A program made the position numbers and the translations under genes. Under the pieces are notes generated by a model. That model was not told where the DNA came from. It did not search any database and was given only the letters and a program-made list of their open reading frames with translations. This document shows, in pieces, positions 1,888 to 16,818 of a DNA stretch of 64,000 nt. Origin of the DNA: Thalassomonas actiniarum. Its GTDB lineage: Bacteria > Pseudomonadota > Gammaproteobacteria > Enterobacterales > Alteromonadaceae. Numbering within the stretch: position 1 is the stretch's first letter; each line of letters begins with the position of its first letter. Where the stretch lies: NCBI RefSeq assembly GCF_000948975.2, contig NZ_CP059735.1:3100001-3164000 (forward strand). Direction: 5' to 3'.

Positions 1888-2175
1888 TTAAGGTCGTTGC
1901 TTGCGGTTAAGCGCCCGCCAGCTGTCCTGCAGCTCCTCTATTTTTTCCCGGTAACCGATGACCTGATATTTGAGCCAATAGCACAGGTGCCTGATACCTT
2001 CACTGGTGTGCTCGGTGATGCACTCGGGTTCGCGGCTTACTGCAGCCAGAGCATCGAACAAAAAGGCGCATTCTTCACTGAATTTGCTATAGTCTTCACG
2101 CAGGTTGGCAAAACCGTCCGACAGCTGCTCCCTTTTGACGGCATCCTCCGTCAGGGGTAACTTTGATTCAGACAT
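1888..2175 (-). CDS. small hypothetical protein, 95 aa
   Basis: A soluble, acidic, mostly helical protein of unrecognised family. The middle holds a TSEGIRHLCYWLKYQ segment, and the C-terminal helix is charged. The start is well supported: a strong GGAGG Shine-Dalgarno lies 6-10 bases before the ATG. That Shine-Dalgarno is inside the 3' end of the preceding 49-residue gene, whose stop overlaps this start (ATGTCTGA), so the two are probably translationally coupled. Function unknown; I assign none. Confidence 0.65.
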   Translation of the reverse strand: MSESKLPLTEDAVKREQLSDGFANLREDYSKFSEECAFLFDALAAVSREPECITEHTSEGIRHLCYWLKYQVIGYREKIEELQDSWRALNRKQRP

Positions 2176-2317
2176 GACCGCATCCTCCCTTGTGCCTTAA
2201 CGGCACATCATTGCAGGCATAAGCTGGCGGGGGCAGCCGGGTGATGGCGGCAGGTATATTTTTGGTTAAAGAAACTTTAACCGAATGAAACTCTGGCATA
2301 TCATTAGGGTTAGCCAT
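2168..2317 (-). CDS. very small hypothetical protein, 49 aa, coupled to the next gene
   Basis: ATG at 2317, TGA at 2168-2170, preceded by an AGAGGT Shine-Dalgarno 7-8 bases upstream. The product is 49 residues with a polar N-terminus, an ITRLPPPAYACND segment, and a tail with two glycine-cysteine-glycine elements (HKGGCGHV). The stop codon overlaps the start of the 95-residue gene. Two cysteines and a Gly-rich tail on such a short protein recall peptide precursors, but no modifying enzyme is adjacent, so this is only a resemblance. Confidence 0.55.
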   Translation of the reverse strand: MANPNDMPEFHSVKVSLTKNIPAAITRLPPPAYACNDVPLRHKGGCGHV

Positions 2318-2685
2318 GATAGATACCTCTAGTTATCTGTTGTGGTTAGCTGTCTCTGAGTGTGTCTGCACTTAGGGGCAGCGCCTGGTTTATCTGCTTA
2401 TTCTCTTTTACGTTTTTATGTACACCTCCGCTGATAACTTATTTACCCTCTAGTGATAGTACAAAATAGCCAAGAAATCAGGCTGGGGTTGCATTTAATA
2501 TTTGTGCAAATTGTAAGTACTGTATAGATTACTGTGCAAATCGTATAATTGCATGAAAAGCAATGAATAAAAGCAACTGAAAAAACATGCGTTATTGTTC
2601 AGGTGACACTGGTAGGGGGCTTGCCCTTTCTTTACGGGAATGTTTTTGATTTAACGCTTGCTGATAGCCATACGAAGTCGTAACC
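2318..2685. other. AT-rich intergenic region with a direct repeat
   Basis: About 370 bases without a gene, lying between the start of the small-gene pair (minus strand) and the mrr remnant (plus strand). It holds a near-perfect 13-bp direct repeat (2503-2515 and 2533-2545) spaced by 30 bp, described separately. Promoters for both flanking transcription units probably lie here. Confidence 0.5.
2503..2545. repeat. 13-bp direct repeat, 30-bp spacing, operator-like
   Basis: TGTGCAAATTGTA at 2503-2515 and TGTGCAAATCGTA at 2533-2545 match at 12 of 13 positions. The 30-bp spacing is close to three helical turns, which suits a protein binding the same DNA face. It lies in a region that should hold promoters. 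The binding protein is unknown. Confidence 0.45.
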
Positions 2686-2957
2686 ATGCAAATATCCAAC
2701 TACCAAACCTAAATGCGCTTGGGTCTTAAACATATCGCCGACGGCAAAGAATACCAGTTAAGCAAATTGATTAATGCCATTTGTGACGATTTAGGCCTGA
2801 CCCAGGAACAACGGCACCAAAAAATGCCCAGCGGCAAGCAAACCGTGGTTTATGGCCGTATTGGCTGGGCCAAAACCTACTTGGCACAAGCGGAATTAGT
2901 GACTTTACCTAAACGAGGTTATTGCGTTATTACTGCTCGCGGGCTAGAAGCACTAAA
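2686..2957 (+). pseudogene. mrr: Mrr restriction endonuclease remnant (N-terminal winged-helix only)
   Basis: From the ATG at 2686 the frame reads eight codons, hits a TAA at 2710-2712, then continues in the same frame from ATG 2713. About 80 codons match the Mrr N-terminal winged-helix domain: an ADGKEYQLSKLI segment, an LTQEQR/MPSGKQ segment, a GWAKTYL segment and the closing RGYCVITARGLEAL. Full-length Mrr continues into a PD-(D/E)XK nuclease domain, which is absent; after about 2957 the sequence is antisense to the convergent hydrolase-like gene. A nonsense codon plus loss of the catalytic domain means no working nuclease. A short DNA-binding protein could still be made from ATG 2713. Confidence 0.75.
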
Positions 2958-3976
2958 CTGCAGGGGGATAAGTCATTACTACCGGCAATATTCGGTACGA
3001 TATCAAAAGGATTATTTTTGGGCTGATGTACTTTTACTCCCAGGCTTTTGGCGATTCGGGTTAACCTTTCGATATTGGCGCCACTACCGTGTACCGCCAG
3101 CTGTTGACCCTTTAATTCATCACCGTAATGAAGACGATAATGCTCTAATGCCGCACAAAACACAATAACTCCCTGGCTATGAGCCACCCATTTGGTTGCT
3201 TTACCTTGATGATGACGCTGGGCAAGTACTGCGGCTAAATGTTGGGCATTGTGTGATTTACTGCCTTGGCGTTTATCAAAGGCACATTCTATTATATCCA
3301 GTCCGGTATTGTCTGAGGGGTTATGAAACAAGGTATAGGCTTTGATGGTATCGGTTTGATAAGCCGCATCGGCATGGGTCCCCATCAACCAGGCGGCTTT
3401 ATCCAAATCGTTTTTCATGCCATTGACTGCGGCATGTGCGGTGCTAATTTGTGTTGTAGGTGTTGGGGTTTGCCAAGCACCAGCTAGTTCTTCAATCTCT
3501 TCTCCTGGCTTTGCTTTATCATAGGAAGGACCATTAGGGACCCTGTCTAGGTGGTACATCATGGTACGTTCAGCGGCGCTATTTGGTTGTTTCCCTATTA
3601 ACTGGTAATCAAAGAGAATATCCTCAATGATCACTTTGTCATCTGTGCTCAATTTGTACCTGATGAGGTAGTGATATTGCTTAAAAGGATATCTTGTCCT
3701 ATATATGCGGTTAAATGGATTTAAGCTGTGTTTGACTGATGATGGGGTACTAGGATGGGAACTAATAAAGACAATCTCCCTGAGTACCTGATACTGATCG
3801 TAGTCGTTTAAGCTGGACAGCATGGAAAGAGCCTGCTGGGAAAATTGTGTTTTGTGGTACGGATAGTCGTTGGGCAGTCTTAATCCGTAATCTATAGCAC
3901 TTTGGCGGTCGAGTGCGAGGGTGTTAAAGGCGTCTTTTTCTGAAATACTTCCTGTATTAAGCCAAGTCATGGTCAC
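2930..3976 (-). CDS. RelE-like plus alpha/beta-hydrolase-like protein, 3' end altered
   Basis: 348 residues. Residues about 42-125 look like a RelE/ParE fold: two helices with DQYQVLREI, then an IYRTRYPFKQYHYLIRYKL strand region and a closing VIIEDILFDYQ strand. Residues about 200-335 resemble a lipase-like domain with a nucleophile elbow AHSQG (Ser267) and a following helix, but no clear catalytic His follows. The last dozen codons (from about 2957 down to the stop at 2930) are antisense mrr sequence, so the native C-terminus was probably lost in the same rearrangement that truncated mrr. It may be an effector or toxin-like protein; no immunity gene is evident. Start ATG 3976. Domain reading is by eye and tentative. 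Confidence 0.5.
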   Translation of the reverse strand: MTMTWLNTGSISEKDAFNTLALDRQSAIDYGLRLPNDYPYHKTQFSQQALSMLSSLNDYDQYQVLREIVFISSHPSTPSSVKHSLNPFNRIYRTRYPFKQYHYLIRYKLSTDDKVIIEDILFDYQLIGKQPNSAAERTMMYHLDRVPNGPSYDKAKPGEEIEELAGAWQTPTPTTQISTAHAAVNGMKNDLDKAAWLMGTHADAAYQTDTIKAYTLFHNPSDNTGLDIIECAFDKRQGSKSHNAQHLAAVLAQRHHQGKATKWVAHSQGVIVFCAALEHYRLHYGDELKGQQLAVHGSGANIERLTRIAKSLGVKVHQPKNNPFDIVPNIAGSNDLSPCSLVLLAREQ

Positions 3977-4125
3977 CCGTCCCTGATTGCTGTTTTATTG
4001 AACAAGAAAATTCTAGACTATGCTCGGTATTATGCATACATGTAAGATAAAACCCGGTAAGTTACATTGCCGAGCAGCTACTTTGACTGTTGTTTTTTAC
4101 CTTGTTTATCAAAGAAGTATTATTC

Positions 4126-4260
4126 ATGGATGAAAATGCAATTAACCTACTTTTTAAGCTTGTCAGCCAGGTAACTGAGCAGGAAAGCATAGCAAAAGAT
4201 CTGGCTATTGTTATGTGCGTGCAGGGTATACAACTGCTCTGTTGTTTCATGATGACATAG
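4126..4260 (+). CDS. possible tiny ORF, 44 aa
   Basis: ATG 4126 to TAG 4258-4260 encodes a helical N-terminus followed by a hydrophobic, Cys-containing C-terminus. The Shine-Dalgarno is weak. An antisense frame of 74 codons covers the same bases and is no better supported. It may be a fragment of a lost gene. Confidence 0.2.
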   Translation: MDENAINLLFKLVSQVTEQESIAKDLAIVMCVQGIQLLCCFMMT

Positions 4261-4457
4261 CTCTCCGTAACTTTGGGTTTGTCCATTCATCTTCGCAGGA
4301 GCAAGGTTTATGAAGGGAAAATTGCACTAATTGCAAACCTCAACTGCATAGTACTTTGATAAGAAAAGATTTATGTGGTGAAGATGTTATTGCCCAACAA
4401 AAAAATGTTAAGCTCCCCGCATTAAATATTAAAGCTCTCGCCCAAAATAAGAAAATT

Positions 4458-5384
4458 ATGTTTTACCAGAATGAATTACAACACAGCGGTATCATCTGGT
4501 TAAGCCTGGCGATTGCCGTCATTAGTGCTTTTTATAGCAAGCGTTTATGGTTAGTGCCTTTAGCTCTTACTCTGGTGCTGGCATTGTTTTACAAACACCT
4601 AACGTTTGTCGGCGCAGCTATTCTTTTATTTGGCTTTGCTCTGGCCAAGGGGCAGCAGTTTTTAGCGGGAAAATTAAAAGCCTTAGTGCAGGGTTTAGTG
4701 GTGATTTGGTGTTTGGCCCTCGCAGCCCATTTATTACCGGGTTTTAATAATCTGCATGTTTTAGATCAGGTCTACACCGGGCCACAAAGTTTGCCTTTTA
4801 CCCTGTATTTGAATTTAGATAAACCTATGCTGTTTTTTGCTTTGTTGCTGATGTTACCGGGCTTATCGAAACCGCAGGCTATACCGGCTGGCGTATTTCA
4901 GTCAGCAGGAGAGCAGCATTTTTCATTCAGCAACCCCATAAAGCCCCTTGTAATGGCAATGCTTGTCATAGGGTTGATTTTTATCGCGGCATTCTTACTT
5001 GAGTTGATTCTGTTTGAAATGAGCCTGCCCGAGTGGTGGTGGTTGTTTGTCATTAACAACCTGTTGTTTACCTGTGTTGCCGAAGAGGCGTTTTTCAGGG
5101 GCTTTGTTCAGCAAAAAATAATGGAAAAATTTAGCCTGAGGTTTTCACCTAAGCAGGCAGCAACAGGAGCTGTCATTATTGCCAGTGTATTATTTGGCCT
5201 GGCTCATTTTGCCGGTGGTGCATCTTATGTGCTGGTGGCTACCCTGGCCGGGGTGTTATATGGCTTTACTTATTTATATACCGGTCGGTTGACTATGGCT
5301 ATTGCGGTGCATTTCTTAGTAAATATGCTGCACTTGCTATTTTTTACCTATCCTATGGCAAAGCCGGAGATGATGCTCATTTAG
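4458..5384 (+). CDS. CPBP-family intramembrane metalloprotease (CAAX/Abi type)
   Basis: An integral membrane protein with about eight hydrophobic segments. The CPBP motifs are all present near the C-terminus: EEAFFRG (motif 1, paired Glu and Arg), FGLAH (motif 2 His) and HFLVN (motif 3 His and Asn). This family includes CAAX prenyl endopeptidases and bacteriocin self-immunity proteins; in gammaproteobacteria most members have no known substrate. I prefer the ATG at 4458 because the first hydrophobic helix follows it directly; a TTG at 4356 would add 34 polar residues and has no ribosome site. The gene stands alone. Confidence 0.8.
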   Translation: MFYQNELQHSGIIWLSLAIAVISAFYSKRLWLVPLALTLVLALFYKHLTFVGAAILLFGFALAKGQQFLAGKLKALVQGLVVIWCLALAAHLLPGFNNLHVLDQVYTGPQSLPFTLYLNLDKPMLFFALLLMLPGLSKPQAIPAGVFQSAGEQHFSFSNPIKPLVMAMLVIGLIFIAAFLLELILFEMSLPEWWWLFVINNLLFTCVAEEAFFRGFVQQKIMEKFSLRFSPKQAATGAVIIASVLFGLAHFAGGASYVLVATLAGVLYGFTYLYTGRLTMAIAVHFLVNMLHLLFFTYPMAKPEMMLI

Positions 5385-5687
5385 TGTGATTTTTACAGCA
5401 GGCGATATTAATAAGGGGAAGTGGCGGTTATCAAAAATGTTCACTAAGCTAACTTGGTTAAACGAAATACAGGTATATCTGATGGTCTGGAAACATGCCT
5501 GAGGGGCATAGTTATTCGGACATGGCGCTTTATTGAAGAAACTGCAGAGAAATAATGTTTATTGTTAACCTTTGATATCGCAGTTAAAAATTAAAGTTTG
5601 TAAATGGTTTCTACCGGGTAAATATTACTACTAGCAGCCGTTTCGTTTACGCTTATCACCCAAATTGTTAAACAAAGGAATGTTAAC
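5385..5687. other. intergenic region, nothing recognised
   Basis: About 300 bases between two co-oriented genes. It is AT-rich near 5550-5680 and probably holds the promoter of the DKNYY gene. A minus-strand frame here (5591-5806) runs into the real plus-strand gene and is taken as a shadow. Confidence 0.4.
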
Positions 5688-6839
5688 ATGACGTCACCCC
5701 ATTGGTTGATCATTGTTTTTACCCTGGCCTTGCTGCCAATATGGGCTGGTTTCGCCCTGATGTCGCCTATGCTGTTTGCGGCTCCGGGCTCAGATACCCG
5801 CACCAATATTTTATCTGTCGTTTTGTTTAGTTATTTCCCCCTGGGGGTCTGGGCCTGGTACTGGCATATGAACTGGCATTTTCTCTCCTTAGATCCGCAA
5901 ACTATTTTTTATATCAATTTAGGCTTTATCAGCTATTTTTTGTGGAGTTTTGGTTATTTTAAGTCGCTCTACCGCGCCTTTTCCCCCATAAACTATCAGG
6001 GGTATTGTGTTTATGATGGCCAGGTGTATTTTAACGGTGAGAAAATGTTGATTGCAGATGAAGCGTCCTTCTCCTTGTTAAAGCATGCCGGTGATCGCAG
6101 GCAGCGCCAGACTTTATATGCCAAAGATGCGACGCATGTTTATTTTAAAGGGCAGATCCTCAAGGGGGCAGACAGTAAAAGCTTTTGTAGTGCCGATCTG
6201 GGCTTTGAAGATTATTTCGTCGATAGCAAGGCGGTTTTTTTTGACGGAAAAGCGATCCCCGATTCAGTGCCGGGGAGTTTTTTGCCCTTTGGCGATTATT
6301 ATTACAAAGACAGCCGCCAGGTGTATTATCGCGGCAAAGTGCTTGCCGGTGTTGACCCCGGGGCTGCGGTGATTAGCTGCAATATTTACTTAAAGTGCGG
6401 GGAAGCCTTATTTCGTTACGGCAGCTTGATTCCCGGGGTGAACGCCCGGTTGTGCCGGATATTGAATTACCATGTGGTGGCGGATGAAAAAAACATCTAC
6501 TTTGACGGTAAAGCTGTGCTCGAAGGGGCTGATGCGAAAAACTTCAAGCTGATAACCCCTAATAACAGGTTTTATACCGATGACAAGCATGTTTTTTATT
6601 TAGCTGAAGATGTTGAACTGCAATTGGCGCAGTTAACCCCGCAATCGTTGGAATTACTGGACTTTGATTATCTTCGCGCGCAGGGTGAGATCTATTTTCT
6701 CTCGCATAGGCAGCGTCTACCTGAGTTGATAAAACTTATGGCAGATGCACAAAGTTTTTCAGTGGCTCAGGCCCTGCCGGAGTTTGATGCCGAAGATAAA
6801 AATCATAAGTTTCTTCGCGGCAATATCGTTGCGTCTTGA
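5688..6839 (+). CDS. DKNYY-repeat membrane protein
   Basis: 383 residues. Two or three hydrophobic helices occupy about residues 5-95, followed by a large non-membrane domain. That domain has repeated units of the DKNYY type: a Lys/Asp-containing turn, two aromatic residues, then a small beta element and 'G-K-x-L-x-G-A/V-D' (for example YYKDSRQVYYRGKVLAGVD and the unit around ADEKNIYFDGKAVLEGAD). Such proteins are common, secreted or membrane-bound, and of unknown function. Start is the ATG at 5688. It has no obvious operon partner. Confidence 0.75.
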   Translation: MTSPHWLIIVFTLALLPIWAGFALMSPMLFAAPGSDTRTNILSVVLFSYFPLGVWAWYWHMNWHFLSLDPQTIFYINLGFISYFLWSFGYFKSLYRAFSPINYQGYCVYDGQVYFNGEKMLIADEASFSLLKHAGDRRQRQTLYAKDATHVYFKGQILKGADSKSFCSADLGFEDYFVDSKAVFFDGKAIPDSVPGSFLPFGDYYYKDSRQVYYRGKVLAGVDPGAAVISCNIYLKCGEALFRYGSLIPGVNARLCRILNYHVVADEKNIYFDGKAVLEGADAKNFKLITPNNRFYTDDKHVFYLAEDVELQLAQLTPQSLELLDFDYLRAQGEIYFLSHRQRLPELIKLMADAQSFSVAQALPEFDAEDKNHKFLRGNIVAS

Positions 6840-10000: not shown

Positions 10001-10220
10001 CATTGTTGAGGCGATTATCGCCATCGCCCATTCCCTGGGGTTTACCGTGATCGCCGAAGGGGTCGAAACGGTAGAGCAGCTCAGGTTGCTGGCGATAAAG
10101 CGCTGTGGTGAATTCCAGGGGTATTACTTTAGCAGGCCCTGTCCGGTATCCGAACTGAGTACTTTGTTGCTGGAGCATCTACCCAAAGGGCAGAAAGTGT
10201 GCAGCCTTAGCAGGAGGTAG
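7053..10220 (+). CDS. MASE1-GAF-PAS-GGDEF-EAL c-di-GMP turnover protein
   Basis: 1055 residues. Residues about 1-290 form an eight-helix MASE1 membrane sensor. A coiled coil leads into a GAF-like domain (about 340-480), then a PAS/PAC pair (about 490-610, with FTELTGYSLAEVLGR). The GGDEF domain keeps its RFGGDEF active site near residue 695, and the EAL domain keeps EALLRW near residue 824 and the DDFGTGYSSL loop. Both catalytic sites appear intact, so it could act as a diguanylate cyclase, a phosphodiesterase or both. The input is probably an aromatic or small ligand sensed by MASE1, which is inference. It is a single gene immediately upstream of the defence island. Confidence 0.92.
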   Translation: MPNTTVHNLVLIPLLAIIYFFTAWLGLQLAFDEVNITPLWPPTGIALAALLYYGNRVWPGIFLGVVLINIYLKTHVMAGLAIATGNTLEVVVAGYLISRFASRWPFAKLQHTVFFILSLCVATMISASGGVVSLYLAGALAKEAVGMLWHTWWLGDLAGGLILTPFLLAWSRAPKERYSAAQMVEATGLILLTSGLMYLLFFTQLSSYANQYLLIFALLPILFWMSFRFHHHGATLMILIMSVLAIVGTLNGLGPFVLATEHDSLLVLQAAVGSVMITVLLLIASQEERLFAIAGLRLSRESLESQVSQRTLELKSANVLLEKEIYHQTHLTEAIKGLLHIVDGSAKQEFFIRCARGLAQTFETRFALIGVFADQTKCSIATLAVWHGNQVGDNFIYALKGTPCEDVMNHAMELVPKKAAERYPEDKLLAQLEIESYFGAPIITPENEVVGIMAVMDIRPMFIASWQKPLLGLFSNRVALELQRRLVMDKLELAEQVFNESSEAIIICDVEKQIIRVNPAFTELTGYSLAEVLGRKPCRYLSSEENSDCYHKLWSTIEAQGAWHGEMTNRRKNGEEYVSWQMIKSAVDDNNKVQQYIFIINDITEKKRAEEKIFQLAHHDAITQLPNRVSFHQQLEISMAEAIKSGARLAVMFIDLDNFKLINDTSGHPVGDELLQQVARRFEQVVGENAMVSRFGGDEFTVMLPAIAGIEQVAKVAQGLLDALKPPFCLTCCEVTISASIGIGIYPDNSDEISTLLSCADNAMYRAKESGRSGYQFYTEQMHVDAQQLVELEQDLRHALKNDEFTLVYQPQVELDTMQITGVEALLRWYHPHKGLISPDKFIPVAESSGLIVAIGAWVINQACYQLRLWHDLGFEQLSMAINLSARQFFQRDLLATIKKSIADNGIPPAKVEFEITESMMMRNIEETIAILHQIKTLGVQLSVDDFGTGYSSLSYLKRFPLNKIKIDRTFVSGLPDDSDDGAIVEAIIAIAHSLGFTVIAEGVETVEQLRLLAIKRCGEFQGYYFSRPCPVSELSTLLLEHLPKGQKVCSLSRR

Positions 10221-10273
10221 CAGGCCGGCACAAAATGCTGTGTTATTTTCACCGCCAAGGACAGCTCGGCGAA

Positions 10274-10401
10274 TTAATAGGCAAATTTTCTGATATGCCA
10301 TTCAAGAGGTTGTTTTAAATCCAGTTTCCTTCTGATTTGTTTGACAAATGAAGCGAACTCCTGCACTTTGTTGACGGCTGCCTCTTTTGTCTGGCGTATG
10401 G
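10274..10401 (-). pseudogene. possible C-terminal gene remnant
   Basis: On the minus strand 42 codons with a protein-like composition (VNKVQEFASFVKQI, then LKQPLEWHIRKFAY) run to a TAA at 10274-10276, with a stop immediately upstream and no start codon. It looks like the tail of a lost gene at the edge of the RADAR island. I cannot name the family. Confidence 0.25.
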
Positions 10402-10505
10402 CTTAAGGGATATTGAGTTATTTTATTTATCAAGCCAAAGCGCTTTTGAATAAGAGCCAGTGTTCGACAGTGTTTACAATAAGAAATTATAAAATCGGAA
10501 GTTAG

Positions 10506-11267
10506 ATGGAATCGATAATCAAAGAGAAAATACTCAGTTTTGAAAAGCCTAAAGTAGATAATTATATTAAGCATTTAATAACAAGAAGGGTCGGAACTTT
10601 CAGCTTAATTATCGGTGTTGTCAGCTTGTTTTTGGTTGTGGCTCAAAAACTGGCCTGGGCAGATTGGGATATTTTAACCGCCTATTCCTATGAAGGATTG
10701 AAAACAGGTTTATTGATATCGTGGTTTTTTCTTTTTTTCATTAGTTTGTTGTTAAGAGTTGTCAGCATTTCAACACTGAACAGTTACCGTGATTGTGATA
10801 AGAAAAACAGGGCTGGTTTGGATGAGGCATTAACATCTGCCGCTAAGCAATATCAGGCGCTCAGGAACAAGCTTGCTGCTGAGCTTAACGCTTTAATCGC
10901 CATTAGCTTTGGGCTTATCCTCATTTTGTTGCTGATCACCAGCAGCGAAAATGCCTGTCCGGTTATCGCCGCTATCGCCTTGGCGGCTTTTATCATTAGC
11001 TATTTTATCAATAAGCAACAGGGTTATACCCGGGGCTGGTCACGTTATGAAAAAACACAGCAGTTATTACACTTGCTGTTGTGGGAATTTGAGCAAGTGC
11101 CCGGCTTATATTCCGGACTTAACAAAGACAAAAGAATGGCAGAGCTTCATGAGAAATATGTGCGGATCATTGAAAATCAAATTCATGCACGCCAGCGGGA
11201 TATTATCGGCGATTATCTTTCGACGAATGATGCCGCTTTTAGCTGGGTTAAGAGCCTGAAGAAGTAG
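10506..11267 (+). CDS. rdrC: SLATT/DUF4231-like membrane protein, RdrC candidate of RADAR
   Basis: 253 residues with four predicted membrane helices at about 32-48, 66-87, 126-144 and 151-168. The two pairs flank a charged, helical loop, and a C-terminal helical region carries the SLATT/DUF4231-like pattern of a Trp-rich helix followed by a pore-associated helix: GWSRYEKTQQLL, then EFEQVPGLYSGL, then KYVRIIENQI. SLATT proteins are membrane effectors paired with nucleotide or nucleic-acid signalling. Published RADAR loci sometimes carry a SLATT protein called RdrC; its position 164 bp upstream of rdrA on the same strand fits that role. Naming it rdrC is inference from context, since the sequence was not compared with known RdrC proteins. 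Confidence 0.6.
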   Translation: MESIIKEKILSFEKPKVDNYIKHLITRRVGTFSLIIGVVSLFLVVAQKLAWADWDILTAYSYEGLKTGLLISWFFLFFISLLLRVVSISTLNSYRDCDKKNRAGLDEALTSAAKQYQALRNKLAAELNALIAISFGLILILLLITSSENACPVIAAIALAAFIISYFINKQQGYTRGWSRYEKTQQLLHLLLWEFEQVPGLYSGLNKDKRMAELHEKYVRIIENQIHARQRDIIGDYLSTNDAAFSWVKSLKK

Positions 11268-11281
11268 GCGTTTTCCCGTAC

Positions 11282-11344
11282 AAGCCGATGCCGTGACTGA
11301 TGCCTGAGATAGCATTTATAATGAGGTTGAAACGGCATCGGCTT
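11282..11344. repeat. 13-bp perfect inverted repeat between rdrC candidate and rdrA
   Basis: AAGCCGATGCCGT (11282-11294) is mirrored exactly by ACGGCATCGGCTT (11332-11344), with a 37-base loop. It sits in the only sizeable gap of the defence operon. The transcript could form a long GC-rich stem. There is no T-run directly after it, so it is not a simple terminator; an attenuator, processing site, protein operator or structured RNA are alternatives. Confidence 0.6.
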
Positions 11345-11431
11345 CCTGAAATGATATTGTCAGTTTTTTATTACTTAGGGCGATTGCCCGATTAAGTAGT
11401 GATTAAATAAAAAGAATAAGGAACAACAAGG

Positions 11432-14092
11432 ATGGCGCAACAACCCAACCTGATTTTAGATGTAAGTTCGGCGGAATATTCCGGGGAATATAAAGATAAA
11501 AACCAGCGCTGGCAGCGCCGTGCCTATGAGCTGGCTGTTGATAATATCAATGCCCTGGTGGAGGAAAGCCGCAGTATTATCGCCCAGACCCAGGGCAAAC
11601 TTGATAAAACCTTACCGCGTATTCACGACGCCATTTTTATCTCCGGCAGCCGCGGCACGGGGAAAACCGTGTTTTTGTATAACCTGGAGCAGGAATGGCA
11701 ACATACCGGCGGGCTGAATAATAAAGATAGGGTCACTTTTCTCAACATTATCGACCCGACCTTGTTGGTGAGCCACGACAACTTTGTCAATGTGGTGATT
11801 GCCCATATCCATAACTATGTACACCAGAAAATAACTAAACTTGAAGACAAGCAAACTTACCAGAAGCTCTTGGGACGGTTGGCGGAATCGCTGGGGCAGA
11901 CCGAATATAATAACCGTGAGGTCAGCGGTTTAGACCGTATTATCAGTTATCAGTCGTCGATGGATTTAGAGAAAAACTTTCATCTCTATCTTGAGCATTG
12001 CTGTGCCTGTTTGAACATAGATGTCTTTGTGCTGCCGGTGGATGATGTTGATATGGCGTTGGGCAAGGCCCATGACGTGTTGGAAACCATACGTCGCCTC
12101 TTGTCCTGCCCGCGGCTTATTCCCATTGTTTGCGGCGACGAGAATATCTACCATCAGGTACTTAGGGATTATTTTGCCTACTCGGGCAATGAAGGGTACG
12201 AGCACCGTAAACCTTTGGCCGGCAGTACCTATGCCGAGCATTTGTCAATGCAATACTGGCGTAAAGTGTTTCCCGAACATCTGCGGGTCGGTCTGGTCGA
12301 TGTCGAATTTTTGATCCCGGATATTGAGATCACCGGCATCGGCGAGCAAAAGCTCACGCCGGGGGCATTTTTTAAAGCAGTCAACAGCCTGACCAGTCCG
12401 CTGGTTAATGGCCTGGAAAACAGCCATCCCCTAAAAGAGCCCGATACCTCAAGGAAACTGGTGCAGTTTGCCAAGAACTTTGCCGTTTATGTTAACCCGG
12501 ATAAAAAATCGGCGGCGATAGCAAACTTCTGGTCGGACTATGTCCGCTATGCGGAAAGTTCACGTTTTGCCCAGGGCTATTTGCTGGCGGATGCGGAGAT
12601 AAAAGTTAAAGCGGGTATCGAGCGCTTAAGCGAACTGGCGCTGTTTAATGTCGAGCTGCAAAGCAAGCTCGGCCGCCATAAGCAGGGCTTTAAAAAACTG
12701 GACTATTTTGGCCAGCTGCAAAAAGAATTTAAGCTGTTGCTCAATTATGACGATTACCAGGCAGGCAGGGAAGTGGCCAAATGGCAGGAAGGGCAACTCG
12801 ATGCTTTGAGCTCTCGCCAGGACAGTCTTGCCAATACCCTGATTGCCATGCCGGCTATCGAAGTGTTCCGTGAAAGCTATATTATTTCTCAGGCATCTAT
12901 TGATGATATGGAACGCAACCTGGAAGAGCAACAGGCCAAGCGAAATGCCTACCTGTTGCTGGATTTATTCACCCATAGCGATTTTTACGGTACTTCCGCT
13001 TATAAGGCCAAGCAGATCTTTTTCGGTAAGGCATTTGAAGTTTTTGCTTTAAGCCTGCTCAGTGACTCTACCGGGCAAACGGTTTCCGGCAGCTGGATAA
13101 AAAAAGTGCTTAACGGTAAACCGCTTAACTCAATACACTTTGTTGCGCCGACAAAAACCTTTGATTTCCCCGATGAGGATACCGCTACATCGGGTGAAGA
13201 GGGAGCTGATGAGGTGACAAACGATGAAATGGCGCTGTCATACAGCAGCGATCATCAAGGGTTTGCCGAGGCGATATCAGCCTGGCAGCAACAATATCAA
13301 AGCGAATTGGCCAGTGCCCGAAACGCCGGTTTATGCCACTTGTTGTCGTTTGTTTTTAACAAGGTTTTTAATCAGCTGGTACAGATGCGAGTAAACAATG
13401 TTTTTCGCAAAAAAGCCGGCAAGCCAGATAATCTGTTTCATATTGCCAAACGGTTTGAGTTTGTGCTGTTAACTTCCATTGGCGCGTTTTTAAAGGACAA
13501 GGGCGATGTGGCGCTGCAAAATACTGCAACCACTTCAAACAATGAGTTTTTGATGACGCCCCAGGGCAAGGCCAGTGACCGGGCCTATAAACTTAATGTC
13601 ACCGATTTTATCCATGATACCAGCAATAGCTATGGCGATTTAATGATGGCGATTTGTGAGCATCCGCTGTTTAAATTAACCGATGTTTATCTGCCTGATA
13701 TGAAAGAAACCTTAACGGTAGGGGGCAAGCTTGATGACAGCACTAAACCGCCCAGGAGAAGGGGCAGGAGAAAAACGTTTGTATCATCAGAGAATATCGA
13801 TGATAACAAGCAACCTCTTTCGTCGTCTAATATCCGGGATTTTATCCGGGGTATCACAACATCAAGAGAACTGGTTGCAGCGCTGAATAGTTACCCTAAA
13901 GGTTTACTGATGCATCTAACCAAAGGACAGCTGGCCGGGAGCTTTGATAATGATTATCGGGAGATGGCGGATTATTTACGGAATTTGATCAAGATTATCA
14001 GCAAAGAAGAAAACCTGAAAAAAAGCGAACGCGATCGTTTTGAAAGACTGCAGGATTGGTTTATAGACTTTGGAAGAAAAGCCGGTAGCTGA
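11432..14092 (+). CDS. rdrA: RADAR system ATPase RdrA
   Basis: 886 residues. Walker A is GSRGTGKT at residues 72-79. A Walker B-like strand ends in PVDDVD with the acidic pair at 204-205. The rest is helical with no membrane segments, as in the KAP/STAND-like AAA ATPase that forms RADAR RdrA oligomers. In studied systems RdrA and RdrB form a large complex that deaminates adenosine or ATP after phage infection, leading to growth arrest or death. Identification rests on the P-loop, the size and the adjoining adenosine deaminase rdrB, whose start is two bases after this stop. Start is the ATG at 11432 with an AAGGA-like site (GGAACAACAAGG) upstream. Confidence 0.88.
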   Translation: MAQQPNLILDVSSAEYSGEYKDKNQRWQRRAYELAVDNINALVEESRSIIAQTQGKLDKTLPRIHDAIFISGSRGTGKTVFLYNLEQEWQHTGGLNNKDRVTFLNIIDPTLLVSHDNFVNVVIAHIHNYVHQKITKLEDKQTYQKLLGRLAESLGQTEYNNREVSGLDRIISYQSSMDLEKNFHLYLEHCCACLNIDVFVLPVDDVDMALGKAHDVLETIRRLLSCPRLIPIVCGDENIYHQVLRDYFAYSGNEGYEHRKPLAGSTYAEHLSMQYWRKVFPEHLRVGLVDVEFLIPDIEITGIGEQKLTPGAFFKAVNSLTSPLVNGLENSHPLKEPDTSRKLVQFAKNFAVYVNPDKKSAAIANFWSDYVRYAESSRFAQGYLLADAEIKVKAGIERLSELALFNVELQSKLGRHKQGFKKLDYFGQLQKEFKLLLNYDDYQAGREVAKWQEGQLDALSSRQDSLANTLIAMPAIEVFRESYIISQASIDDMERNLEEQQAKRNAYLLLDLFTHSDFYGTSAYKAKQIFFGKAFEVFALSLLSDSTGQTVSGSWIKKVLNGKPLNSIHFVAPTKTFDFPDEDTATSGEEGADEVTNDEMALSYSSDHQGFAEAISAWQQQYQSELASARNAGLCHLLSFVFNKVFNQLVQMRVNNVFRKKAGKPDNLFHIAKRFEFVLLTSIGAFLKDKGDVALQNTATTSNNEFLMTPQGKASDRAYKLNVTDFIHDTSNSYGDLMMAICEHPLFKLTDVYLPDMKETLTVGGKLDDSTKPPRRRGRRKTFVSSENIDDNKQPLSSSNIRDFIRGITTSRELVAALNSYPKGLLMHLTKGQLAGSFDNDYREMADYLRNLIKIISKEENLKKSERDRFERLQDWFIDFGRKAGS

Positions 14093-14094
14093 TT

Positions 14095-16578
14095 ATGTTA
14101 AACAATTCACTGGAAAATACCGCCAGGGCCAGTTTGTTAAATTCCGATCGCTGGCTTTACCACCTGCTGACAGACGATATGCCCTTTAGCGATGCGCAAC
14201 AAGTCGCCCATAACGGTTTAACGGATAAATTGCTGGCAGCACATCGCCGTGATGATATCGAAAAAGTGATGGCGGGACTGGCAACTTCCTGGCATAAAAA
14301 CTATTCGCTGACGTATCTTAATCAGTGGCAGGAAAGGTTTTTGTTGTGGCAGGGGAACCGCTTTGAAGTGGCCAAACCCTATCTGGATGAATGGCTGGCG
14401 CTGTGCTCGATTATTGATCCTACCCTGGTATTGGGCTGGGGTTATGCGCAAAAGCTGTGGCATGATAACTTAAGTCCGCACCAGTTGGCCGGGCTTGAGC
14501 AATGTATGCAGGGGCTGAGCGGGCAAAGGCACCTTGCTTTTGCCGATAACCATGCCCATATCGGCGGCCACGGCAGCCAGCGGCAGGCCTTTGTCGATTT
14601 TTCCTTTGAGGCCTTTGATACTTCAAAACAGCATTTTAACTGGCCGAGCCTGCACGAATACCGCTTTATCAGCGCCGGGCAAGTTAATGTCGCCGACTTG
14701 CCGAGGATGCAGCATGCCTTGTTCTGTTTTCTGGTAGAGGCGCTGATCTGGGGGGATGACAGTGAAAGGCAAGCACTAAACCTGCATGATCAGATGCAAA
14801 TGCGCTATACCAATGCCAGTTTGTCTGCTTTGCTCAAACAGTCCGGCGAACAGAATGTGCCGCTGTCTCTGCTGGCGCGCGCGGTAAATTGCGATACCGA
14901 TAAGTCGGCGCTGTTGATCTGGTCGGCGTTGTTTTATGCCGAGCGCTACCTGGAAGTGTCCGGCAATTGGCGTACCAGCTTTCGTGCCTATATTCATGTC
15001 AGCCAGATCCTCAGAACCGGTATGATACATAAAGGGCTGGGGCTGAGTTACTTCACCGAATTTTTCCGTTTTAATGCCAGAAAAGGCCGCAGCGGCACAA
15101 AATATGGCCGTTACGCCCTGACCACAGATTTAAACAGCAAAGTCTACCGGGAATTTAAGGTGGCGCCGTCTTTTATCAACCAAAGAAGGTTATCCCGGCT
15201 GCATGAGAAACTTGCCAAATCGGGATTTGAGCACAATATCCAGTTTTGTATCCACTTTACCCGCAGCGGCCGGGGCGGGGATAAATTGCAGCGGGAAAAG
15301 CGCCTGTCTTTAAAACAGGAATGCCAGCAGCTGGTGACGCTATTTTCCTCCTACGGCGCACAAAATTTTGCCGTAGATAACAAGTTGTTTGCTGCGGATG
15401 ACGGCAAAACGGTGAACCTGTTGAACCTGGTGCGCGGCCTGGATGTCGCCGGTAATGAAAACCAGGTGAAAATTGAAGTGTTTGCACCGTCGTTAAGGTA
15501 TTTGCGCGCCAGTCCCTGGAAAAACCCTTATCCGCTTTATCGCCCGCAGCGCAGGTTACACTTGAGTATCCATTGCGGGGAAGACTTTGATCACTTGCTA
15601 TCCGGCTTACGCCATATCGATGAAACCGTCTCTTTTTGCGAGTTCGGCGAAGGGGACAGGTTAGGACATGCCCTGGCGCTTGGCATAGCGCCGCAGGCGT
15701 GGGCCAAACGGCATGACAGCGTGAGGATCAAAGCCGGTGAACACCTGGATAACCTGGTGTGGTTATATCATCAGGTGGTCACGTTATCCCTTAGGCTGCC
15801 TCAGATCCTGCCTTTTGCCAACACCTTGGAGGTCAGGGCGCGTAAGTGGTGTCGGCATATTTACGGTGAAAGTTATGATCTCACCACTTTATATACCGCC
15901 TGGCAGTTAAGGCGCAATTGCCCGTTAAGCTTTATGGAGTCGATGCACAGCCCGCTCAATCCGGGGTATTTACCGGACTTTGTTGACGGCAAAGAAAGAG
16001 ATCAAACGGCGATCAAGCTCTGGCGGCACTATTTTACCAGCGCCCATTTAGTGAAAAAGGGGGAAACTAACCCCTTTGAGCAAACAGTGCTGCTGCGCCA
16101 TGTCGAGCAGCATCATCCCGATGCCCAAACCCAAGTCTTGCAGGGACAGGATTATTTTACCCCGGATGAGCTGGACTGGCTCGGCGCCATTCAGGATCAG
16201 CTGATGCATCAATATGATGATCAAGGCATTACCATAGAAGCCTGTCCGAGCTCAAATATTTATATCGGCCATTTTGATTGTTTCAGCCAGCACCCGTTAT
16301 TTCGCTGGGCGCCGCCGCTTGAGGCCTTGCTTGACAAAGACAGGGAATTTAACCGTTTCGGTTTACGCAAGGGACCGGTACGTTTTTGTGTTAATACCGA
16401 TGATGCCGGTTTGTTTCCCACCACCATAGCCAATGAGCACAGGATTTTAAAGGAAGTGGCTATCCGTCATTTTGATGCCTCTACCCAGGTGGCAGATGCC
16501 TGGATAGCGCGTATTCGCAACATAGGGCTGGAAGAATTCCGGCGCAACCAGGAGGCGGTAAAGGTGGCCGAAACTTAA
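14095..16578 (+). CDS. rdrB: RADAR adenosine deaminase RdrB
   Basis: 827 residues. All metal and catalytic motifs of the adenosine deaminase superfamily are present: HAH (His153, His155, zinc), HCGE (His493 to Glu496, catalytic Glu), a GH motif (His525), a CPSSN segment, and NTDD (Asp769, Asp770) near the C-terminus. Size and insertions match the large RADAR deaminase RdrB rather than a 330-residue metabolic Add protein. It starts two bases after the rdrA stop, so the two are almost certainly co-translated. No frameshift is seen, so the deaminase should be active. It is the strongest single piece of evidence that this is a RADAR locus. Confidence 0.92.
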   Translation: MLNNSLENTARASLLNSDRWLYHLLTDDMPFSDAQQVAHNGLTDKLLAAHRRDDIEKVMAGLATSWHKNYSLTYLNQWQERFLLWQGNRFEVAKPYLDEWLALCSIIDPTLVLGWGYAQKLWHDNLSPHQLAGLEQCMQGLSGQRHLAFADNHAHIGGHGSQRQAFVDFSFEAFDTSKQHFNWPSLHEYRFISAGQVNVADLPRMQHALFCFLVEALIWGDDSERQALNLHDQMQMRYTNASLSALLKQSGEQNVPLSLLARAVNCDTDKSALLIWSALFYAERYLEVSGNWRTSFRAYIHVSQILRTGMIHKGLGLSYFTEFFRFNARKGRSGTKYGRYALTTDLNSKVYREFKVAPSFINQRRLSRLHEKLAKSGFEHNIQFCIHFTRSGRGGDKLQREKRLSLKQECQQLVTLFSSYGAQNFAVDNKLFAADDGKTVNLLNLVRGLDVAGNENQVKIEVFAPSLRYLRASPWKNPYPLYRPQRRLHLSIHCGEDFDHLLSGLRHIDETVSFCEFGEGDRLGHALALGIAPQAWAKRHDSVRIKAGEHLDNLVWLYHQVVTLSLRLPQILPFANTLEVRARKWCRHIYGESYDLTTLYTAWQLRRNCPLSFMESMHSPLNPGYLPDFVDGKERDQTAIKLWRHYFTSAHLVKKGETNPFEQTVLLRHVEQHHPDAQTQVLQGQDYFTPDELDWLGAIQDQLMHQYDDQGITIEACPSSNIYIGHFDCFSQHPLFRWAPPLEALLDKDREFNRFGLRKGPVRFCVNTDDAGLFPTTIANEHRILKEVAIRHFDASTQVADAWIARIRNIGLEEFRRNQEAVKVAET

Positions 16579-16602
16579 GTCGGCACAGCATGCTAACTGG
16601 GC

Positions 16603-16707
16603 TTAGAGGTAATGGAGCAGCCAGGGACCGGCTTTTACCTGTCCGTAAATAACCGAGCTGAGTACTAAAGTGACTAATAAAAAAAGTTTGCGGTAATGGC
16701 TTTTCAT
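16603..16707 (-). CDS. possible 34-aa small membrane or secreted peptide
   Basis: ATG at 16707 with a GGGGA Shine-Dalgarno six bases upstream encodes MKSHYRK followed by a single hydrophobic helix and a short tail ending at 16603. It is in frame with the upstream lysR remnant, so it may be an independent tiny gene or merely the read-through end of that decayed frame. It ends 25 bases from rdrB, convergent to it. Confidence 0.3.
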   Translation of the reverse strand: MKSHYRKLFLLVTLVLSSVIYGQVKAGPWLLHYL

Positions 16708-16818
16708 TTTATTCCCCGTATTGTTGTTATCTGCCTTCGATAACGGCTGTCGGCTGCTTTGGTTGACACAGCGGCAGAAAATAGCGGCATGATAGCCGAT
16801 GCATGTCTTGAGCCATGT

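Follow-up and report, generated by a model that had tools for sequence, protein, structure and literature searches.

Known RADAR systems

RADAR is a phage-defence system that is thought to poison the ATP pool of the cell. According to PMC9994260, RdrB converts ATP and dATP to ITP and dITP, a conversion that is enhanced by RdrA. Subtypes associated with Csx27 and with SLATT proteins have already been described (PMC7699616, where they are written rdrABC and rdrABCD; PMC11676413). Here, we describe a locus of Thalassomonas actiniarum located in a window of 64,000 nucleotides (NZ_CP059735.1, positions 3,100,001-3,164,000 of the forward strand; coordinates below are those of the window). Judged from its sequence, the locus is a RADAR anti-phage cassette in which an rdrD-like gene, coding for a predicted membrane protein, comes first, before rdrA and rdrB (order D-A-B).

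An intact rdrA-rdrB pair preceded by an rdrD-like gene

The cassette contains an intact rdrA (AAA+ ATPase) adjoining an intact rdrB (adenosine deaminase type), with two bases between them. The rdrD-like gene is separated from rdrA by 164 base pairs (bp). RdrA and RdrB match the corresponding PADLOC models with E=1.2e-106 and E=7.7e-160, respectively, and RdrB reaches the NCBIfam cut-off of 800 with 804.5 bits. The P-loop GSRGTGKT occupies residues 72-79 of RdrA and DDVD residues 204-207. All seven deaminase positions checked in RdrB are present (H153, H155, H493, E496, H525, D769 and D770), and the catalytic residues (HxH, H and E of HxGED, H, DD) are kept in 61 or 62 of the 62 aligned RdrB proteins. 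Sequence searches of the Protein Data Bank (PDB) recognised chains 8hr7/8fnt with RdrA (E=4e-16) and 8fnw with RdrB (E=3e-23). We take these to be the E. coli RADAR proteins, the search itself naming only an ATPase and a deaminase. An earlier note on this DNA (hereafter the original prediction) had claimed an intact RADAR locus, which is borne out in its exact coordinates, the two-base spacing, the P-loop, the deaminase positions and the PADLOC matches. The features of the locus, with lengths in amino acids (aa), are as follows.

10506..11267, + strand: rdrD-like gene; 253-aa four-helix membrane protein with a SLATT-type C-terminal half; sub-threshold SLATT_1, RdrD and DUF4231 matches, and a group profile matching an RdrD-type profile
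11268..11431, + strand: intergenic gap with a 13-bp inverted repeat (11282-11294 and 11332-11344) that is not shared by two congeners
11432..14092, + strand: rdrA, AAA+ ATPase, 886 aa; Walker A 11645-11668, DDVD 12041-12052; matched by PADLOC, by NCBIfam below the cut-off and by PDB chains 8hr7/8fnt
12878..12970, + strand: RdrA stretch, residues 483-513; longer in the 15 loci with an upstream RdrD than in 11 related ones lacking the gene
14095..16578, + strand: rdrB, adenosine-deaminase-type, 827 aa; HxH 14551-14559, HCGED 15571-15585, H525 15667-15669, TDD 16396-16404; matched by NCBIfam and PDB 8fnw
10190..16600, no strand: block missing in congener G003, where the position, between an EAL gene and a 334-aa open reading frame (ORF), holds 93 bp of other sequence

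Conservation of the rdrD-like gene beside rdrAB

A scan for RdrA in 369 genomes of the class returned the window itself as the sole match; hence, the scans were made family-wide. The family sample comprised 395 genomes; RdrB matches occur in 14 of them and are strong (E<1e-40) in 11. RdrD-profile matches were found in 12 genomes, ten of them at E<=1e-14; the two others are weak and riddled with stop codons. The single TAG in the window's own match immediately precedes the ATG codon. Among the 11 genomes with a strong RdrB, ten have an RdrD-like match (E<=1e-14) beside rdrAB, as against none of the 384 others (Fisher p 4.8e-19, which is not a true probability, the genomes being related and shared ancestry uncorrected). 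The gene is located before rdrA in nine of the ten genomes and after rdrB in one (G769). Profile rows were supplied by four of the ten (G000, G002, G020, G687) and not by the other six. The original prediction had proposed co-occurrence across genomes as a check, and the gene is indeed conserved beside rdrAB. The sole exception among the 11 is G565 (L116 2439-4915, minus strand), whose rdrB is spread over two overlapping frames and which has no rdrD-like match. The genomes with a weaker RdrB are G714 (4.5e-20; an unmatched three-helix gene follows rdrB), G455 (3.5e-4) and G778 (7.2e-4).

Side observations concern individual loci. At L113 (G574, 1999-5994), two pieces of rdrA lie on either side of an IS3-family transposase gene; the reading frames of rdrB and of the rdrD-like gene are open. 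The congener G001 has a second, distant RdrB-like match (G001:C1:5772114-5772911, L099; E=1.5e-28). Outside cellular chromosomes, tblastn found no RdrB relative in phages, and a single-protein search of viral contigs, which reaches close relatives only, found none either. RdrB matches are found in 7 plasmid records, two of which cover at least 80% of RdrB.

Relationship of the membrane protein to RdrD

Sequence comparison places the membrane protein of the window among the relatives of RdrD (the accessory protein in SLATT-associated RADAR), as a divergent one. The kinship was seen most clearly at the level of the group. A profile of the upstream proteins aligns with an RdrD-type profile built from six longer downstream proteins over 229 of 251 columns (hhalign E=8e-15); these are proteins encoded beside rdrAB, and their homology to the upstream group is full-length. 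With the seven SLATT_2-type downstream proteins, just 40 columns are alignable. Comparison of the RdrD model (NF041745) with the 16 members of our first alignment, A2 (15 upstream proteins and L034), gave six matches at E<=0.01, the best at E 1.2e-11. The best upstream score is 44.9 bits (L022), and none of the 15 upstream proteins reaches the RdrD cut-off; the same holds for six more proteins, upstream or downstream, that the family scan yielded. Ten of 13 downstream proteins were scanned: the cut-off is exceeded by L070 (286.8 bits), L043 (280.3 bits) and L054 (309.9 bits); L058 and L056 are sub-threshold RdrD matches, and the five others match SLATT_2. In a tree of the 15 upstream and 6 downstream RdrD-type proteins, one branch (96/98) splits the two sets; the split recurs in 94% of 200 bootstrap trees, with long-branch warnings.

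The original prediction had called the protein SLATT/DUF4231-like; a SLATT/RdrD kinship is found, together with conservation beside rdrAB. For the window gene taken alone (10506-11267), SLATT_1, DUF4231 and RdrD matches do exist, all of them below the curated cut-offs. PADLOC 2.0.0 (E<=0.01) matched neither of the two proteins tried, upstream L022 and canonical RdrD L070. With every upstream protein below the NCBIfam RdrD cut-off, this points to an annotation gap.

Topology and conservation of the membrane protein

A Kyte-Doolittle scan of the 253-aa protein shows four hydrophobic segments, starting at residues 29, 70, 127 and 150. The predicted transmembrane segments (TM) are listed with the helices of the AlphaFold2 model.

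10590..10646, + strand: predicted TM1, residues 29-47 (Kyte-Doolittle; AlphaFold2 helix 2-50)
10713..10769, + strand: predicted TM2, residues 70-88 (Kyte-Doolittle; AlphaFold2 helix 65-100)
10884..10940, + strand: predicted TM3, residues 127-145 (Kyte-Doolittle; AlphaFold2 helix 105-144)
10953..11009, + strand: predicted TM4, residues 150-168 (Kyte-Doolittle; AlphaFold2 helix 150-172)
11010..11264, + strand: C-terminal helices, residues 169-253, predicted cytosolic (AlphaFold2 helices 174-201 and 205-252)

The charge pattern of the protein fits cytosolic termini. The model is of moderate quality (predicted local distance difference test 75.7, predicted template modelling score 0.64) and that of canonical RdrD L070 is weak (67.5 and 0.50), which limits their comparison to helix order; this order is similar in the two predictions. 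The original prediction had regarded the four-helix form as a variant. It is not new, because above-cut-off RdrD proteins L070 and L043 also show four hydrophobic segments (L054 three). Among the other downstream RdrD-type proteins, four segments are seen in L040 and L056 and three in L058. The 15 upstream proteins have four (5 proteins), three (8) or two (2), a count that depends on the threshold.

In the three congeners, identity is 84.7-88.2% over the C-terminal tail (169-253), as against only 25.0-37.5% over the cytosolic linker (89-126). The short outer loop (48-69) is also conserved, with 68.2-86.4% identity. The conserved tail, predicted to be cytosolic, hints at an intracellular partner, and the outer loop could provide a second site.

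Position of the accessory gene

An RdrB-alignment scan of genome contigs gave 59 loci. Together with the window, G001 and two plasmid loci, they make 63 distinct loci, from which second copies of two loci (L008, L009) had been dropped. Accessory genes were detected with a hidden Markov model (HMM) profile, A3, made of 14 upstream proteins (E<0.1, against ORFs of at least 80 aa); L034, present in A2, was excluded from the profile because it was unalignable. Eight of the 63 loci, with a contig end nearby, were left unjudged. In 15 of the 55 judged loci, an RdrD-like gene is located directly before rdrA; in 13, a SLATT-type gene follows rdrB (one of these, L057, lacks the upstream side). No RdrD/SLATT-type gene was detected in the remaining 27, where "none" means not detected by the HMM, L034 and L011 carrying unmatched candidates. 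RADAR can therefore do without such a gene. The distance from the upstream gene to rdrA is 0-13 bp in the 12 loci outside Thalassomonas and 63-164 bp in Thalassomonas.

The position before rdrA is an unusual feature of the locus that the original prediction had not raised, and the D-A-B arrangement recurs in related sea bacteria. A literature search found no description of RdrD before rdrA. It did not cover the founding RADAR paper, which limits any claim of novelty, an earlier description being possible.

Some loci carry other candidates. Three-helix membrane genes lie beside divergent RADAR genes at L034 (4802-5506, Campylobacterales; overlapping rdrA) and at L120 (1216-1941, G714). At the limits applied, their proteins have no match among the NCBIfam and PADLOC models, and the genes are possibly further accessory types. 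On an Aliivibrio plasmid (L011), an annotated SLATT gene that the profile missed (1317-1859) is found about 5.5 kb before rdrA, beside a nucleotidyltransferase. At L024, RdrB groups with L031 and L042, and the RdrD-like protein, though not with strong support, with L018, L022 and L053; a swap of accessories between cassettes is possible.

A stretch of RdrA that varies with the accessory

Lengths of the RdrA stretch were obtained from 58 aligned RdrA proteins. It has 30-52 residues in all 15 upstream loci (31 in the window) and 16-23 in 10 related loci without RdrD and in L067. In the remaining loci, the ranges overlap: with a downstream accessory, 24-30 residues for the RdrD type (six loci) and 18-31 for the SLATT_2 type (six loci); without RdrD, 19-36 in the other 16 loci; and 22-28 in four loci left unjudged. 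In an RdrB tree made by a quick method (62 of the 63 loci, L067 being left out), the upstream loci fall into two groups. One is Thalassomonas, joined by L013, which is truncated on its upstream side; the other is a clade of Pseudoalteromonas, Shewanella and Photobacterium that includes the unjudged L027. The difference in length was found by searching for such differences, and the correlation is therefore a lead, not a result. The enlarged stretch is a possible docking site for the membrane protein.

Absence as a block and exchange of the cassette

All three genes are present at the same site in G001 and G002. In G003, the flanking genes are about 0.4 kb apart and none of the three RADAR genes is found. 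Alignment with G003 shows that the left flank of the window ends at 10189 and that the right flank covers 16601-16769, the 93 bp of G003 in between being other sequence. Synonymous divergence (dS) between the window and G002 is 0.48 and 0.37 for two flanking genes, as against 1.45, 4.51 and 1.58 for D, A and B; estimates exceeding 1 are unreliable, and that of 4.51 is saturated. With G001, flanks (1.07, 0.96) and cassette (1.46, 1.05, 0.94 for D, A, B) are alike. These values suggest an exchange of the cassette in one lineage. Positive selection was not seen: the ratio of nonsynonymous to synonymous divergence (dN/dS, NG86) is below 0.2 in all 10 comparisons, several of which have an unreliable dS above 1. 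Just outside the block, a small ORF of 34 residues with a hydrophobic stretch (16603-16707, minus strand) is conserved in G001, G002 and the RADAR-free G003.

The intergenic gap

The original prediction had also pointed to the structured gap as a variant feature. The 164-bp gap, with its inverted repeat, folds better than 199 of 200 shuffled sequences (z -4.2). Before rdrA, G001 has a gap of 63 bp and G002 one of 151 bp; neither shows excess folding (z -0.03 and +1.27), and most of the Thalassomonas gap is not conserved. The feature was not upheld, and a conserved regulatory RNA was rejected, the fold not being common to G001 and G002. A search with the gap DNA in four genomes of the genus, made without Rfam, gave only short matches beyond the site itself; one that was inspected (L079) resembles coding sequence by eye.

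Possible role of the RdrD-like protein

We propose tentatively, with a confidence slightly short of one half, that in the D-A-B cassette an RdrD-like membrane oligomer docks RdrA-RdrB and that the complex works at the membrane. RdrA, an AAA+ ring, would sense infection, and RdrB would then convert ATP and dATP to ITP and dITP, by analogy with published RADAR work on other systems. The RdrD-like protein would oligomerise in the inner membrane, its two termini facing the cytosol, where its conserved C-terminal helices may bind the RdrA-RdrB assembly, possibly at the enlarged RdrA stretch. The membrane could be the place of sensing, or gating of the oligomer could have a second, membrane-opening effect. 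The dN/dS values of 0.14 and 0.19 against two congeners count in favour of this proposal. We also considered that D-A-B could be a distinct RADAR subtype, with RdrD docking the enlarged stretch and the complex being assembled at the membrane and switched on there, for instance by phage DNA entry; this more specific version is unlikely.

Several results weigh against the docking proposal. The window protein misses the cut-offs of SLATT_1 (NF033634; 28.7 of 41 bits, E=1.1e-6) and DUF4231 (PF14015; 22.1 of 24.7 bits, E=2e-4), both matched in its C-terminal half, and of the RdrD equivalog model (17.8 of 230 bits, E=0.0023). Alone, it matches the RdrD-type profile weakly (40.3%, E=2.9e-4, 98 columns). 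RdrA reaches 452.2 bits where the NCBIfam cut-off is 600. No solved relative of the membrane protein was found in the PDB, either with its model by Foldseek (E<=0.001) or with a sequence profile (best E 0.11). The conserved tail is not unique, because the outer loop is conserved too. The length of the window's RdrA stretch falls within the range of unrelated loci without RdrD, and the loop correlation represents one or two evolutionary events, because the upstream loci form two groups in the RdrB tree. Finally, the gene goes undetected in about half of the judged loci.

Membrane docking nevertheless appears the most likely role, and pore formation is its main rival. There, the RdrD-like protein would be an effector, inert until triggered by RdrA or by inosine nucleotides, that permeabilises the membrane as a second killing arm beside ATP deamination. 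SLATT proteins are predicted in PMC7159879 to be nucleotide-signal-responsive pore-forming effectors, and those found with DRT9 are discussed in PMC12483538 as predicted toxic pores. However, these are predictions only, made for two-helix SLATT proteins, and TM2 (26.3-57.9% identity) and TM3 (45.0-63.2%) are among the less conserved parts of the window protein; we regard a pore as somewhat unlikely.

The protein could also be only a regulator, a brake holding RdrA/RdrB inactive at the membrane until phage entry. Overexpressed RdrB is reported as toxic without phage (PMC9994260), and a leading gene, tightly spaced in the 12 upstream loci outside Thalassomonas, is what one would expect of a protein made before toxic RdrB. 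Yet the 27 loci without a detected gene indicate that RdrAB can be kept safe without a brake, and this role is quite unlikely. As for an unrelated gene that lies beside rdrAB by chance, the long and mostly unconserved Thalassomonas spacing and the missed curated cut-offs would suit it. It is already contradicted by the co-occurrence, as well as by the absence of the whole block from G003 and the homology of the group to RdrD, which make it highly improbable.

The D-A-B group bears on how RADAR senses infection and on what membrane accessories do. Its accessory leads the operon and accompanies rdrAB almost without exception in the family sample, and the longer RdrA stretch offers a testable contact site between membrane protein and complex.

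Comparison with described RADAR systems

Compared with stand-alone RADAR (rdrAB; 8fnt, 8fnw, 8hr7), RdrA and RdrB of the window are homologous, with conserved motifs, over phmmer alignments limited to RdrB residues 442-807 and RdrA residues 66-296, and the locus has an extra membrane gene. RADAR with a two-helix SLATT protein after rdrB (L046, L048, L049, L057, L068, L069, L071) also has a SLATT-type membrane partner beside rdrAB. That partner differs by its NCBIfam model (SLATT_2, scored in all five that were scanned among these seven), by the 40 alignable columns and by its position. SLATT-associated RADAR with RdrD is the closest: it combines RdrA, RdrB and a SLATT-type accessory with four predicted helices, the group profiles match over nearly their full length and the predicted helix order is similar, as far as the weak L070 model tells. 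In contrast, the window accessory precedes rdrA and scores far below the RdrD cut-off, whereas the above-cut-off proteins L070, L043 and L054 are encoded after rdrB, a placement that is our reading of these three proteins and not a curated rule. The locus is a variant of SLATT-associated RADAR, ordinary in kind and unusual in gene order and divergence.

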